Below are positions 509 to 52,744 of a stretch of 64,000 nt of DNA, piece by piece. The stretch is from Lysobacterales bacterium. Lineage in GTDB: Bacteria; Pseudomonadota; Gammaproteobacteria; Xanthomonadales; Marinicellaceae. The stretch is from positions 1 through 64,000 of the forward strand of contig JAGRJR010000003.1 in the NCBI GenBank assembly GCA_020442635.1. Direction: 5' to 3'. How positions within the stretch are numbered: the stretch's first letter is position 1; each line of letters starts with the position of its first letter. The notes beneath the pieces were generated by a model, which had not been told where the DNA came from, made no database searches, and saw only the letters and a program-made list of their open reading frames with translations. The translations under genes were made by a program, and so were the position numbers.

Positions 509-1363
509 TCAAGCAATGGTAAAAAAATGATCCATAATAATATCGCCAGCTAAATAAGCAACCAAAATACCTATAGACAAATACGGACCAAAAGGTATTT
601 TGTTTTCGGTTTTACCCATTAACTTTTCTATAACTGCAATAATCAATCCCGAGACAGATGACAACATCAAAACGATAATGAGTTGTTCATACCCAAGCCA
701 CGCTCCTCCAGCAGCCAACAGTTTAAAATCTCCATAGCCCATTCCCTCCTTACCTGTTATCAACTTAAATAGATGAAAAACACTCCAGAGTGACAAATAA
801 CCAACTAACGCACCAATGATTGCTACCGAAGGAGGTATGGAAAACTCAAATAAACTAAAAAACAGACCAAACCAAAGCAAAGATAAACTGATTTGGTCCG
901 GTATCAAAAACGTATCGATATCAATCCACGTTATCGTTATTAAAAAACAAACCAAAATTACCGCAGCAACAAACTGCAGTTCAACACCGTACAAATAAGC
1001 CATCAACGCAGACAACACACCAGTTAGCAATTCTATAAAAGGATAACGAATTGAAATAGGCTGGCCACAAAACGAACATTTACCTCGCAGTGAAATATAG
1101 CTGATCAGAGGAATATTGTGATACCAACGAAGTTTATTTTTACATTTTGGACAATGAGACCTGTCTAATCCTATACCAGGAGGAGCAGGTTCTTCGAATT
1201 TGGCTTCAGTAAATTCTGCGTAATCTTTTTTCCAGGTATACTCCATCAAAGGCGGCAACCTGAGAATCACCACATTTAAAAAGCTTCCAATGACCAGTCC
1301 TAAAACAAAAGCCGAAACAATAAACAACATTGAATATTGTTGTAATACTTGTAAAAAATCCAC
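509..1363 (-). CDS. pilD: Type IV prepilin peptidase / N-methyltransferase PilD
   Basis: PilD is an inner-membrane aspartyl protease that removes the leader peptide of type IV prepilins and pseudopilins and methylates the new N-terminus. The 284-residue protein has the N-terminal domain with a zinc-type tetracysteine (C71, C74, C96, C99). It also has the two catalytic aspartate regions of the family: WIDID...IPD around 146-156 and GMGYGD ending at D212. Several hydrophobic membrane segments are visible. Translation starts at GTG, directly after the TAG stop of pilC, so the two are probably translationally coupled. Confidence 0.95.
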   Translation of the reverse strand: MDFLQVLQQYSMLFIVSAFVLGLVIGSFLNVVILRLPPLMEYTWKKDYAEFTEAKFEEPAPPGIGLDRSHCPKCKNKLRWYHNIPLISYISLRGKCSFCGQPISIRYPFIELLTGVLSALMAYLYGVELQFVAAVILVCFLITITWIDIDTFLIPDQISLSLLWFGLFFSLFEFSIPPSVAIIGALVGYLSLWSVFHLFKLITGKEGMGYGDFKLLAAGGAWLGYEQLIIVLMLSSVSGLIIAVIEKLMGKTENKIPFGPYLSIGILVAYLAGDIIMDHFFTIA

Positions 1364-46708: not shown

Positions 46709-48523
46709 TTACTCAAAACGGTCTTTGAAAATGACATCAAACCAGAAAGTGGCATCAGCACCTGCATCAAAACTGGCCGGAGGACATATTTGTCCGGTAC
46801 AACCTGTTCTGAACTCGCCGTCAATGTCATTTTCCGGAAACAAGTCGGCACTGTTGTGGTTGCACATTGTCAGACCCAATGACCCTTGTTCCAGGCGATA
46901 AGTTGAACCCGGGACATAATCGGCGCTGCCCAACACAATGGTGGTGCCAAAAAAAGAACTGTTTTCATGGGTGAGTAAACACCGGAATAAGGTCAAATTG
47001 CTTGGGTTTTGTTGGTTGTCAGCAAACACTGGTGTATTGCTGTTTTCATCGATGATTGATCGAGTTAAGGCAATGCGGTCTGCGGCAAAACCACTGATCA
47101 CCGGACCTGAAAACAAATGATTATCGGCAATGGTGCTGAAATCAATATTCACCACACTGCCGGTTGAGGCTGCAATCAATTGGGTGGTATTGGGGTTAAA
47201 TAACAGCCCATTGTTGTGTATCACATTACCCTGCATGTTGACTTCCGCACCAAATACCGAGCCCAAGTGAGCATCCTGAGCGACATTGCCACTGATGTCA
47301 GTCTGGTAAATATCAACCACCGCATTACTGTTGGTAACGAAACCAGCAGCCACGCCATTAAGTACTGTGTTGCCCTGGATTTGATTGCAAGCGTTTGAGG
47401 GTATGTTTTCCTGAATGCAGTGGTTGAGTGATTTATTGATCCGCATGCTGAAGGTGGCACCATTGCCAGCAAACAAACCACCACCGCTGCCAAACAGCAT
47501 GCTGGCATCAATGTCATTACCGTAAAGCGCCAATTGGTAGGCATCGACAGTTGTGCCAGATCCGGAGATGGCCATGCCTGCTCCGTTAACCGCAAACTGC
47601 ACATCATGCAGAATCTGGTTGTCTTCGAACACCACTTGCTGTCCGTCCTGGGTGGTCGAAGTGATTGCTTTGTTGATTTCAACGGTGCTGCCACCATTGG
47701 CAAACAATCCACCACCTTGTATGGTAGCGGTGTTGTGGATGATTTTTTTGCCGAATCCAGTCCCTTGGTTACTGACGGTGATGTAATTATCAATTTTAAG
47801 GACACAAAAGTCAGTCGCATAGATGCCACCACCCTTGCCTCGGTTAGCGAAATCATTGCCAGTCTCAACCGTCTTATTGTTGCTGATGGTGGTATTGATC
47901 ACTTCAACTGTGCTGTGAGCACAGGCCACACCACCCCCGTTGAACGATTCATTGCCATCGATCAGTGAATTACTGACCCGGACAAATGAGTTGCTCAACA
48001 CAGAAAGCCCCCCACCCACACTATCAAAAAGAGTCCGCCGATTGTTACTGATGGTGGTTTGGCTGATGATGCCGGACGAATCATCGCTGAAGACAACTCC
48101 GCCCAAGGTGGTGAAATTTTGGATGGTTAATTTGAACAGATGGATGGCACTTGACTGACTGTGCACCGTGATACCCGGGAAACTTTCTCCCTGACCATCA
48201 ATCACCGCATTGGGACCATTGGCTAAACCAGCTGCTGCATCTACACAATTACCATAGCCACCCTGTAATGTGAGGTTATTTTTGTTACCAATGAACAAGC
48301 CTCCTGGCCATAATTGCTGATTAGTGATTCGTATGCTGTAAGTTTGGGTGTTTCCTGCAGGAATCGAATCAAGGGCGGTTTCGATAGAATTAAAATCACA
48401 GGTACTGTCGGCACCAACGGTAATAACCGTTAAGTCTCCTTGTAAGTTTTCTAATTCATTGGTCGCGCTCACTTGTAACGAAACCAATATTAAAAAAATA
48501 ATTTTTAGGGACGTACTGCTCAT
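46709..48523 (-). CDS. Secreted right-handed beta-helix protein 2
   Basis: A 604-residue paralogue of the neighbouring gene. ATG 48523 (MSSTSLKIIFLILVSLQVSA) follows AGGAG at 7 nt; a TTG two codons upstream is less likely. The N-terminal block ITVGADSTCDFNSIETALDSI...ITNQQLWPGGLFIGNKNNL closely parallels the other protein. Coils with the same N/G/S pattern follow (TTISNNRRTLFDSVGGGLSV, NSLIDGNESFNGGGVACAHS). It ends DIDGEFRTGCTGQICPPASFDAGADATFWFDVIFKDRFE. It is the first gene of the minus-strand trio, whose products all share the IFx(D/N)xF tail. Confidence 0.85.
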   Translation of the reverse strand: MSSTSLKIIFLILVSLQVSATNELENLQGDLTVITVGADSTCDFNSIETALDSIPAGNTQTYSIRITNQQLWPGGLFIGNKNNLTLQGGYGNCVDAAAGLANGPNAVIDGQGESFPGITVHSQSSAIHLFKLTIQNFTTLGGVVFSDDSSGIISQTTISNNRRTLFDSVGGGLSVLSNSFVRVSNSLIDGNESFNGGGVACAHSTVEVINTTISNNKTVETGNDFANRGKGGGIYATDFCVLKIDNYITVSNQGTGFGKKIIHNTATIQGGGLFANGGSTVEINKAITSTTQDGQQVVFEDNQILHDVQFAVNGAGMAISGSGTTVDAYQLALYGNDIDASMLFGSGGGLFAGNGATFSMRINKSLNHCIQENIPSNACNQIQGNTVLNGVAAGFVTNSNAVVDIYQTDISGNVAQDAHLGSVFGAEVNMQGNVIHNNGLLFNPNTTQLIAASTGSVVNIDFSTIADNHLFSGPVISGFAADRIALTRSIIDENSNTPVFADNQQNPSNLTLFRCLLTHENSSFFGTTIVLGSADYVPGSTYRLEQGSLGLTMCNHNSADLFPENDIDGEFRTGCTGQICPPASFDAGADATFWFDVIFKDRFE

Positions 48524-48824
48524 GACCAACTCCTATTCAATAATCAATTACAGTACTCAAGGCAAATTAATTCAGTTATCGCACATTTTTTTGATTAATT
48601 TTCTGTCACTAAAACTAAAAATATCTGTATTCAGATGAAAACCTGTAAGAATGAAAGCCATTTAAAAGATTTGGAAGGATATAAAATCTCAAATAATGCC
48701 AGTAATAATCAAAAAAGAGAACCGATGATTTTTTGGTTCCATGAAAAAAATTATCCCAAGGTCTTGTGCAAACTTGAGGTGGGTTGCGATAAAATACTGG
48801 GCTTTTGAACCAACAGAGAAATTC
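48524..48824. other. Divergent promoter region, beta-helix operon / ppsA
   Basis: About 300 bp between divergent starts, AT-rich, with no credible ORF. A short GAACC/GGTTC inverted repeat flanks a T run near 48720-48741. I could not assign promoters with confidence. The original ppsR-ppsA shared promoter cannot be intact here, because ppsR lies 8 kb away. Confidence 0.35.
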
Positions 48825-51179
48825 ATGTCCCAATACATCATCAAACTTGATCAACTTAACATGAACGATTTAGACCAGGTAGGTGGCAAAAATGCCTCCT
48901 TGGGTGAGATGATTACCCATTTACATGGGTTGGGCGTGAAAGTACCGGGTGGTTTTGCTACTACAGCTGACGCTTTTAAGGAGTTTTTACAAACTTCTGG
49001 TTTGAATAAACGTATCAGCACCGAATTAAAAAAACTCGATACTGACAACATTGATGACTTGAGAGAAGCTGGCGAAAAAATTCGTGGCTGGGTATTGGAT
49101 ACACCCTTTCAAGCTCCACTGGAACAAGCCATTCGTAATGCTTATGCTGAAATGAAAAATGATTTGGGCACTGACTTCTCTGTGGCCGTGCGTTCTTCTG
49201 CAACCGCTGAAGATTTGCCAGATGCATCGTTTGCAGGACAACAGGAAACATTTTTGAACGTTAATGGTGCTGATGAGATTCTGAAAAAAGCCCATGAAGT
49301 GTTTGCCTCATTGTATAACGACCGAGCCATCTCTTACCGCGTGCATCATGGATTTGATCATGACGATGTGTATTTATCAGCGGGCGTTCAACAAATGGTA
49401 CGCTCTGACATCGCAGCCAGCGGTGTGATGTTCACCATGGATACCGAGTCAGGATTTGATGATGTCGTGTTCATAACTTCTTCTTACGGCTTGGGTGAAA
49501 TGGTGGTACAAGGTGCAGTAAACCCTGATGAGTTTTACGTGTACAAACCGGCTTTGAAGGCTAATAATCCAGCAGTATTACGTCGCAACCTGGGTTCCAA
49601 ATCCATTGAAATGGTTTACGGTGATACGGGTGTACAAACACAAAACATTGATGCACAGCGCAGTCAAAAATTCTCCATCACCGATGATGAAGTACAACAA
49701 CTGGCACAGATGGCTTTAACCATTGAACAGCATTATGGTCGCCCAATGGACATTGAATGGGCCAAAGATGGTATCACCGGTGGTTTATACATCGTGCAAG
49801 CCAGACCTGAAACGGTTAAGTCGAGAGAAGCTAAAGGCCAACAAATTGAACGTTATGCCCTGCAAAAATCCGGTAGCGTGGTTTGTGAAGGCCGTAGTAT
49901 TGGGCAAAAGGTCGGGCAAGGAACCGCCAAAGTCATCAAAAGTATCAGCCAAATGGATCAAATCAACGAGGGCGATGTGTTGATCACCGATATGACCGAT
50001 CCGGATTGGGAACCCATCATGAAAAAAGCCGCTGCGATTGTGACCAACCGTGGCGGGCGCACCTGCCATGCGGCAATCATTGCACGTGAGTTGGGCATTC
50101 CGGCGATTGTAGGTTGTGGTGATGCCACGCAGAAAATTCAACATGAAGCTGAGGTGACGGTTTCTTGTTGTGAAGGCGATACTGGTTATGTCTATGATGG
50201 CTTGTTGGGTTTTGATATCCACACCACTGATTTGAAAAACATGCCTGAAGCGCCTTTGAAAATTATGATGAATGTTGGTAACCCCGATCGTGCCTTTGAT
50301 TTTCAAAATTTGCCTAACTTTGGCATTGGTTTGGCTCGACTTGAATTCATCATAAACCGCATGATTGGCATCCACCCCAAAGTTCTACTGAATTACGATT
50401 CTCAACCTGAATCAGTACGACAAATCACTGATCCTATGGTGGCCGCTTATGTTTCACCCAGAGACTATTTCGTTAAGCGCTTGGCGGAAGGTATTTCGAC
50501 CCTGGCGGCGGCGTTCAATCCACAACCAGTGATTGTGCGTTTATCAGACTTTAAGTCCAATGAATACGCTAACCTGATTGGTGGTGCTCAATATGAACCC
50601 CATGAAGAAAATCCCATGTTGGGCTTTCGTGGCGCATCGCGTTATCTAGATGATTCATTTGTGGATTGTTTTGAAATGGAATGTGAAGCACTGAAATTCA
50701 TCCGTGATGACATGGGTTTGACAAATGTTTGGGCCATGGTACCCTTCGTCAGAACATTGGCTGAAGGTCAAGGCGTGATCGACCTGATGGCCAAGAACGG
50801 CCTGAAACAAGGCGATAATGGCCTGAAAATCATCATGATGTGTGAACTACCATCCAATGCCCTAATGGCCGATGAGTTTCTCGACATTTTTGATGGCTTT
50901 TCCATTGGCTCCAATGACATGACCCAATTGACTTTGGGCCTGGATAGAGACTCAGGCATCATAGCCGACTTATTCGATGAGCGCGACCCTGCTGTGAAAA
51001 AAATGCTGTCTATGGCCATCAGTGCCTGTAAAAAACGCGGTAAATACATCGGCATCTGCGGCCAAGGCCCATCCGACCATCCAGATCTGGCTCAGTGGTT
51101 GCTTGATCAAGGCATTGAAAGTGTGTCACTAAACCCGGACACAGTGGTTGAAACTTGGCTGAAATTGGCGAGCAATTAA
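48825..51179 (+). CDS. ppsA: Phosphoenolpyruvate synthase
   Basis: PpsA converts pyruvate, ATP and water to PEP, AMP and phosphate for gluconeogenesis. ATG 48825 ([29 protein letters not shown]) is the family N-terminus; an in-frame ATG at 48741 would add 28 unrelated residues. The 784-residue protein has the N-terminal ATP-grasp domain ([22 protein letters not shown]), the phospho-histidine loop [21 protein letters not shown] and the C-terminal PEP/pyruvate barrel with FCEMECEAL-like and [17 protein letters not shown] segments. The threonine in GGRTCH is the site PpsR modifies in other bacteria. Confidence 0.97.
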
Positions 51180-51706: not shown

Positions 51707-51964
51707 TTACTTATAAATACGGTTGCATAATTCTAGAGCCGGATGTATTGATTTACCCTGCCCTGTACCGTCTTCTGCTTTGTTCTGACCAGTACCATCT
51801 TCGGCCTTATTTTGACCGGTACCATCTTCCGCCTTAATCACAAATTGGCAGTATTCATAGTACTGGTTATTTATGGCATTTTTGTCTTGTCCTGTACCAT
51901 CCTCAGCACCGAAAGACAATGAACTTAAAGCTAAAAGAGTAAAAAGTGTTAATGATTTTTTCAT
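51707..51964 (-). CDS. Small secreted peptide with four AEDGTGQ(D/N/G)K repeats
   Basis: An 85-residue protein with a clear signal peptide (MKKSLTLFTLLALSSLSFG), so a mature peptide of about 66 residues. Four copies of a nine-residue unit are visible at 20-28 (AEDGTGQDK), 45-53 and 54-62 (AEDGTGQNK), and 63-71 (AEDGTGQGK); the last three are in tandem. C39 and C80 could form a disulfide closing the repeat block. AGGAG lies 8 nt upstream of the ATG. The nucleotide copies differ mostly at silent sites (Ala is GCT, GCG, GCC and GCA in turn), which argues for selection on the peptide. It lies 27 bp after the HTH-like gene, probably cotranscribed. I do not recognise the family. Confidence 0.8.
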   Translation of the reverse strand: MKKSLTLFTLLALSSLSFGAEDGTGQDKNAINNQYYEYCQFVIKAEDGTGQNKAEDGTGQNKAEDGTGQGKSIHPALELCNRIYK

Positions 51965-51991
51965 GATATGGCTCCTGATTATTATTTAAAT

Positions 51992-52744
51992 TTATTTATG
52001 TTTGGATAAATAGGTCTGCAGTAATGACACACCCACCTCTGAAAAAGCCCCAACAGGCAATTCTGGTTTTTCAAGTTCTTCAATTTTTTTTCTCAATCGA
52101 ACCCGCAACGCCCAAAATTCATCTCTGGTGTATTGCTTGAACTCTCTTTGTTGATTCAAAGGCATCTGAGTTGAATAGAAGTTGGCTTGAAACAGCTGAT
52201 CTGATTCTTTAGCATCCCTGTTGTGCAACAGTGTTGTAATAACTTTGTTGAGTGTTGATGAAAAAACATTAACATATGACTCAGACATGCCGGATGTATA
52301 TAAACCTTCATTACGTATGATGATGTGTGTAGATGAATTTTCTTTGAATGTAATGACTTTACGACTTATTAACTCCTCAAGCGTATTCTGTGGTGACATG
52401 GTGCTTCTCATCACTTTTTCAGATATTTCATAAAACTCTTTGATTGACAACTCCCCATCATCACTTTGAGCGTACGCAGTTGTGATCAGTGCTGATAAAT
52501 TTGACGGTTTTGTTTCGGGGGGCGGTTCTTTGATAAATTTGGCATAACTATTGCGGTCCAAACCCGCCCTAGCAGCTATATTTTTTTGGGATTCATCTTC
52601 ATCACTATTTGCTTTAGCAATATGTGCAAGATGCCACCTCACCAGCTTCCAAACTTCCGCTTGAGGGACATCGAATTGATAAATCATTTCTGCAAAAGCT
52701 TTCAAAGCCAAGTTCAAACGGTCGATTACTTCTTTTTGATTCAA
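51992..52744 (-). CDS. Putative HTH regulator, DUF6502-like
   Basis: A 250-residue cytoplasmic protein. An N-terminal helical region (IDRLNLALKAFAEMIYQFDVPQAEVWKLVRWHLAHIA) is followed by a helix-turn-helix-like stretch (SQKNIAARAGLDRNSYAKFI), a middle region, and a helical C-terminal domain (YVNVFSSTLNKVITTLLHN, EFWALRVRLRKKIEELEKP). This arrangement recalls DUF6502 proteins, but that match is from memory and uncertain. The start is TTG at 52744: the frame has no ATG before residue 20, and AGGG lies 9 nt upstream. A 13-bp hairpin covers that AGGG. It is the first gene of a two-gene unit with the repeat peptide. Confidence 0.7.
   Translation of the reverse strand: MNQKEVIDRLNLALKAFAEMIYQFDVPQAEVWKLVRWHLAHIAKANSDEDESQKNIAARAGLDRNSYAKFIKEPPPETKPSNLSALITTAYAQSDDGELSIKEFYEISEKVMRSTMSPQNTLEELISRKVITFKENSSTHIIIRNEGLYTSGMSESYVNVFSSTLNKVITTLLHNRDAKESDQLFQANFYSTQMPLNQQREFKQYTRDEFWALRVRLRKKIEELEKPELPVGAFSEVGVSLLQTYLSKHK

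Follow-up and report, generated by a model that had tools for sequence, protein, structure and literature searches.

The peptide gene and its neighbourhood

The DNA analysed here is one stretch of 64,000 nucleotides, called the window below. On its minus strand lies a small open reading frame for an exported repeat peptide, which is confirmed as real; the plus strand across 51707-51964 is riddled with stops. The features of the locus are collected in Table 1. The peptide is laid out as MKKSLTLFTLLALSSLSFG^AEDGTGQDK...C39...(AEDGTGQNK)2 AEDGTGQGK...C80, with 66 residues in the mature part, and the repeated unit is called the GTG box in this paper. A preliminary description, made from the letters of the DNA alone, had reported a signal-peptide protein of 85 residues with a nonamer present four times, three of them in tandem, and the reading frame, the ribosome-binding site and the four copies are all there. 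It had also placed the repeats between two cysteines; this holds for copies 2-4, which lie between Cys39 and Cys80, but not for copy 1, which is sited at the predicted mature N-terminus.

Among the 270 ORFs of at least 60 aa in the window, the peptide gene is the only one with a repeated box, and AEDGTGQ has no occurrence outside this gene in the 3.5-Mb genome; the repeat is thus no chance occurrence. Searches of Pfam and NCBIfam with the peptide gave no family above its cut-off, and tblastn against phages and plasmids gave chance matches only. The AlphaFold2 model of the peptide (two-row alignment) was poor, with pLDDT of 50, and no ordered array was seen at this low confidence. By eye, from their sequences, the neighbouring ORFs were named as PEP-synthase-like (48741-51179) and FolC-like, with the HTH gene as the third. 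A RiPP precursor was considered and rejected, since there are no modification enzymes among these neighbours.

Table 1. Features of the GTG-box locus in the window, and sister loci with a poly-T run
Feature	Position	Strand	Remarks
85-aa exported GTG-box peptide gene	51707..51964	-	ATG start, stop 51707-51709; homologues found
Predicted signal peptide, residues 1-19, MKKSLTLFTLLALSSLSFG	51908..51964	-	read by eye; aligned with orthologue
Box 1, AEDGTGQDK, residues 20-28	51881..51907	-	predicted mature N-terminus
Box 2, AEDGTGQNK, residues 45-53	51806..51832	-	
Box 3, AEDGTGQNK, residues 54-62	51779..51805	-	
Box 4, AEDGTGQGK, residues 63-71	51752..51778	-	
Cys39, conserved, precedes boxes 2-4	51848..51850	-	orthologue alignment
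Cys80, conserved, after box 4	51725..51727	-	orthologue alignment
Ribosome-binding site AGGAG, 7 nt 5' of ATG	51972..51976 (plus-strand numbering)	-	sequence
Partner gene, 250-aa divergent DUF6502-superfamily protein, HTH-like N-terminal region	51992..52744	-	TTG start uncertain
Poly-T loci (outside the window): L125, L127, L128, L148, L158, L160, L161, L164, L166, L167, L169, L134, L230			

The partner gene upstream ends 27 nt 5' of the ATG of the peptide gene. Its product gave no family above cut-off in Pfam and NCBIfam. With the DUF6502 profile (PF20112) it scored 10.9 bits (E 0.2), below the cut-off of 27, and the Pfam match with HTH_19 was also sub-threshold; the protein is called HTH-like on the basis of these sub-threshold profile matches. 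A profile built from the window partner and its relatives (A2) recovers many of the genes that PF20112 recovers, for example G004 C21:357580, G005 C2:140565 and G000 C215:10212. Through such intermediates the window partner belongs to the DUF6502 superfamily, though it is under the Pfam cut-off, and an exported box protein lies directly downstream of it. Its AlphaFold2 model (two-row alignment) was poor, with pLDDT of 46. Viral contigs scanned with regulator proteins contained no relatives.

Selection on the boxes

The four copies of AEDGTGQxK use four different alanine codons (GCT, GCG, GCC and GCA) and vary at the third positions of Glu, Asp, Thr, Gly, Gln and Lys, while residue 8 is the sole residue that changes. 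This codon comparison agrees with the preliminary description. Comparison of the four 9-mers with each other gave pS of 0.94 and pN of 0.055. The closest relative (L026) is found in a metagenome-assembled Gammaproteobacterium, apparently of the same species as genome G013, and it retains both the upstream gene, at 84% identity, and all four boxes unchanged. When the window is compared with this orthologue, the boxes are 28/28 identical, with pN of 0 and pS of 0.70, whereas the rest of the peptide is 18/55 identical with pN of 0.40. The upstream partner protein is constrained (pN 0.09). Because the boxes are unchanged and the rest is not, the box is the element held by selection, and the remainder of the peptide is nearly free.

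A short ORF with tandem repeats might be taken for a recent DNA slippage or a spurious ORF. Silent sites are saturated within the peptide gene and between species, and the ribosome-binding site, the signal peptide and the synteny are conserved in relatives, so this explanation can practically be dismissed. The earlier claim of selection on the peptide instead of a recent slip is thus borne out. The reading frame is intact in the homologues found, except in sister clades where a poly-T run with a frame change is conserved, described below, and in one broken copy (L142); since the homologues are intact outside these cases, broken frames do not count against selection. Locus L142 (G013 C94) has ADSDGGQ copies in two reading frames of one gene, which points to a broken copy or to a further frame change.

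Box partners of DUF6502-type genes in the family

We surveyed 33 genomes of the family, belonging to four genera, and read the DNA downstream of about 150 DUF6502-type (HTH) genes. Of 152 loci, 60 had an exported protein with repeated xxxG(T/S)G boxes directly after the HTH gene; among other ORFs the figure was 6 of 2346 (Fisher p about 2e-71, indicative only, with the loci taken as independent). At least three of the six background ORFs are box partners themselves, lying at the edge of a contig or next to an incomplete HTH gene. Many superfamily members in the survey are without a recognisable box partner. It is nearly certain, in our judgement, that the pairing of an HTH-type gene with an exported protein, and the GTG box itself, are real. 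The preliminary description was right about selection on the peptide; it missed the regulator-type gene upstream, and also that the box is common to many otherwise unrelated exported proteins encoded next to DUF6502-type genes.

The partners could be divided into several classes, three of which are given here; the unit length of the box ranges from 7 to 12. Class I partners are DUF5666-type proteins of about 500 aa in which the box occurs two or three times, the copies being separated (GQGGTG, AQGGTG, EIIGxG). Class II partners have about 180-230 aa and carry arrays in the mature part such as (ASDEGTGGx)7, (ATENGTGRK)6 and (AVSDGSGFTD)7; in a subset of the window's family they also have a leader with copies of [AS]E[TS]EG-T-[GD]-I located 5' of the signal peptide. 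Class III partners are peptides of 75-100 aa like that of the window, mostly with flanking cysteines, whose boxes include AEDGTGQNK, ANDGTGQGK (five copies), AQDGTGN, VGNDGSDSK (four copies), VVGDGSN (six or seven copies), VGGDGTGNK and others. Class III peptides, including the one in the window, have no leader array before the signal peptide.

Two further arrangements were observed in the survey. Convergent HTH gene pairs flank one box-peptide gene at L016 (742-2887), L005 (687-2412) and L066/L122. At L238 (about 923-1226, plus strand) a small exported protein with KVQQEGTDN repeats lies beyond the HTH-distance rule, and it is possibly another partner.

Leader arrays in the order

We also made the converse test, for which 398 genomes of the order were searched for DNA that matches the leader-array pattern E[KR]xGTGIE[KR]xGTG. 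The array, (IE[KR]xGTG)n, was found in 29 of them, once in each, and in every one of the 29 the stop of a DUF6502-superfamily gene lies 15-185 nt 5' of the array on the same strand. Leader arrays have 2-7 copies and abut the signal peptide on its N-terminal side, for example MTRWMIEKDGTGIEKSGTGIEKSGTGIEKSGTGIRKSLLALSMVSIAFA. In most of these proteins the mature part bears an array too (VTGGGTG, VAGGGTG, VEGDGTG and others). Serine codons of the TCN and AGY types are mixed within arrays, and therefore it is the peptide that is constrained. We rejected a DNA-level element recognised by the HTH protein, such as iterons or an operator in the coding region, because the silent sites are scrambled and both types of serine codon occur within one array.

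DUF6502 and DUF5666 in the class and in Rhizobium

DUF6502 was found in 90 of 321 genomes of the class, representing 74 genera. We read 30 of these loci, a few of which were unreadable as the ORF caller had taken another frame. In most of them the next gene encodes a DUF5666-type lipoprotein with a single N-terminal box of GGIGGTG type after the lipidation cysteine (CGGGGGTLAGGGIGGTGIS and similar). In Rhizobium the pair is carried on plasmids; the genes annotated as DUF6502 and DUF5666 overlap there, and two boxes, DHGIGGSGLS and DHGIGGTGIV, are found in the exported partner. Canonical DUF6502 proteins usually have a box of their own near the C-terminus, DRDVNPxxxGTGRxxAGIGIYYFE, and 23 of the 30 class-level copies show a strict G[TS]G; this G(T/S)GR box precedes the last strand (GIGIYYFE; L324-L353). 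No G(T/S)GR box was seen in regulators paired with array-bearing partners.

The locus in the window resembles the DUF6502 (PF20112) and DUF5666 (PF18914) pair in having the DUF6502-type gene upstream, the exported partner downstream and a GTG box near the mature N-terminus. It differs in that the exported peptide of the window, of 85 aa, is mostly boxes and has no DUF5666 domain, and in that the HTH protein is under the Pfam cut-off and has no box of its own. The window peptide is the most stripped-down form of a two-gene system common in Gammaproteobacteria and also present in Rhizobium. We take it as the end point of a reduction that pared the exported protein down to little but boxes.

Concerted change and specificity of the boxes

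Copies that are separated by about 420 aa in one protein change in step with each other: EIIGLG with EIIGLG, EIIGSG three times, and likewise EIIGTG, EIIGIG and EIIGHG, with scrambled silent sites and one mismatch (L047). Leader and mature arrays were compared in the same manner. The residue before GTG is equal in 16 of 37 proteins, where 6.6 are expected by shuffling, these counts being only partly corrected for phylogeny. The agreement is 12/17 outside two big blocks, 0/11 in the block of family f8, and family f1 has no excess. At position 1 of class II (A or S) the leader equals the mature array in 10/10; the regulator tree implies two or more joint switches, a number of independent changes too small for significance.

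Box sequences differ from lineage to lineage, and paralogous pairs within one genome have different boxes. In those genomes, boxes of the forms [AG]QGGTG and A(E/N)DGTGQ had no clear use elsewhere.

Proposed mechanism and alternatives

Three things argue for a dedicated cytoplasmic reader: leader and mature boxes covary in part, each box sequence is used by a single protein in a genome, and the neighbour is obligate. For this role the HTH-type protein encoded next door is the obvious choice, and for this reason we favour secretion-coupled regulation. The window holds a cognate pair, which consists of a DUF6502-superfamily HTH-type protein and an exported partner with signal peptide, four GTG boxes and two cysteines. 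The GTG box is a short linear motif with core xxx-G-T/S-G, and it is the part that functions and is under selection. In the cytoplasm, up to and including the time of export, the regulator may bind the boxes that its own partner carries; export would then take the ligand away and so switch the regulator. Boxes in the leader stay cytoplasmic, and those in the mature part are cytoplasmic too until export. Several copies could provide avidity, and lineage-specific box sequences could keep paralogous pairs apart. The gene, the selection on the boxes, their distribution (also on the cytoplasmic side of signal peptides), their concerted change and the obligate neighbourhood are shown by the data above; the binding of boxes by the regulator, its DNA targets and the direction of the switch are what we infer here. 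The probability that the adjacent regulator reads the boxes of its cognate partner before export, in the manner of FlgM, is by our estimate roughly 0.4.

Export of FlgM frees its sigma factor, FliA. The proposed logic is alike in that an exported protein would act on a cytoplasmic regulator until it leaves. It is an analogy only: the GTG-box partners carry Sec, Tat or lipoprotein signals where FlgM uses the flagellar exporter, and there is neither a sigma factor nor a sequence relation. If true, cytoplasmic reading would be a counterpart of FlgM-type secretion sensing based on Sec or lipoprotein export.

The same gene pairs could be explained by boxes that stack or bind ions in the envelope, with the HTH gene merely controlling the operon. 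Tandem nonapeptides with Gly and Asp, two flanking cysteines and identical copies within one protein would suit such a structural array, and copies could be kept alike through packing against each other. This we consider somewhat unlikely, as the unit length varies from 7 to 12, copies can be far apart in sequence, and boxes occur on either side of the membrane and covary in part across it. The lack of an ordered array in the AlphaFold2 model points the same way, weakly in view of its low confidence, and there is no match with RTX or another repeat family. RTX repeats are Gly/Asp-rich units of nine residues with the pattern GGxGxDxUx. The GTG box is alike in being a nine-residue Gly/Asp-rich unit in the window, but it lacks the GGxGxDxUx pattern, has a variable unit length and gave no RTX profile match; an RTX-like metal-binding nonapeptide was rejected on these grounds, and the metal-binding role suggested in the preliminary description does not fit in this form.

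An unlikely explanation, to our view, is a peptide pheromone of the RRNPP kind: the exported peptide would be cut to box peptides, which would be re-imported to bind the HTH protein encoded beside it. RRNPP systems are defined by a small secreted propeptide gene adjoining the gene of its regulator or receptor (PMC10075063). The locus does have a small Sec-type propeptide beside a cytoplasmic regulator-like gene of 250-300 aa, as in Rap-Phr and PlcR-PapR; several signal copies per propeptide, box sequences differing by lineage and the position of box 1 at the mature N-terminus would also agree with it. Against it, leader boxes before the signal peptide are absent from the exported mature protein, class I partners are folded proteins of about 500 aa or lipoproteins with one to three boxes, and no cleavage residue is conserved. 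The regulators gave no TPR match when scanned against Pfam, and because there is no TPR-containing receptor (250-500 aa) the system falls outside the RRNPP definition. It is also unlike RRNPP in being Gram-negative, in its pre-signal boxes and in its often large or lipoprotein partners. Processing at lysine, which the preliminary description had named as one option, is unsupported as a general rule, since the lysine is missing from the boxes of many relatives (GQGGTG, EIIGSG, VVGDGSN, GGIGGTG); Kex-like processing at lysine was rejected.

The box could also tag the partner, and ancestrally DUF6502 too, for the action of an enzyme encoded elsewhere (a protease, a glycosylase or another kind of modification enzyme). 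The box in DUF6502 C-termini and the Thr/Ser kept in most boxes speak for this. A shared enzyme fits badly because each box sequence serves one protein per genome; moreover Leu, Ile or His replaces Thr/Ser in EIIG(L/I/H)G, and no candidate enzyme gene lies beside the pair. We take this tag to be quite improbable.

Returning to secretion-coupled regulation by the adjacent regulator, we extend it only tentatively to a Pseudomonadota-wide mode of regulation, with DUF6502-type readers, multi-copy GTG boxes on a single dedicated partner that would be read before export, diversifying boxes that keep paralogous pairs from cross-talk, and a subset of partners that would be made solely by programmed poly-T slippage in the signal peptide. 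In the literature searched, with most subscription journals outside it, there was no description of a DUF6502-type/GTG-box system; in the parts of this literature that were accessible, no paper described DUF6502, and DUF5666 had passing mentions only. We rate the GTG-box/DUF6502 system as categorically new as a system, with a mechanism that we infer. DUF6502 and DUF5666 are common families without function, and the GTG box links both of them concretely and makes their function testable. It is kept across species, repeated on the exported protein, sometimes present on the cytoplasmic side of the signal peptide, and often present in the regulator.

Probable frame change at poly-T runs and other observations

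Runs of T8-T10 inside the signal-peptide codons of box-protein genes were found at 13 sister loci in 10 genomes (Table 1), among which L230 was assigned from near identity to L134 and not from its own scan. The ATG frame closes at or soon after the T run in 13/13. Adding one T (11 loci) or removing one T (L134, L230) joins MKxxxLxxxFF to the remaining signal peptide and the boxes; for example, MKNFKLTGLFF is joined to CLTTATFSYA, which is followed by the mature GNGDGSGG. Not one of the 13 loci is in frame, for which random phase would give (2/3)^13, about 0.005, with the loci treated as independent. Runs of nine A or nine T are prone to slippage in many bacteria (PMC1088944), so programmed transcriptional slippage or a -1 ribosomal shift is likely in these genes, as judged from their sequence. 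This poly-T subset is similar to slippage genes of the MxiE/dnaX type in having a homopolymer of A9/T9 length in an ORF with a frame change (PMC1088944). It is different in that the run lies inside the signal peptide and is common to a set of box-protein genes, and the slippage is putative here.

Apart from the boxes, exported proteins with a C-terminal (I/L/M)(F/Y)xxxFE tail were noticed in the window (46709-48529, minus strand, with FKDRFE) and at L036, L038, L040, L050, L053 and L009. This tail could be a sorting tag of the window's bacterial family.
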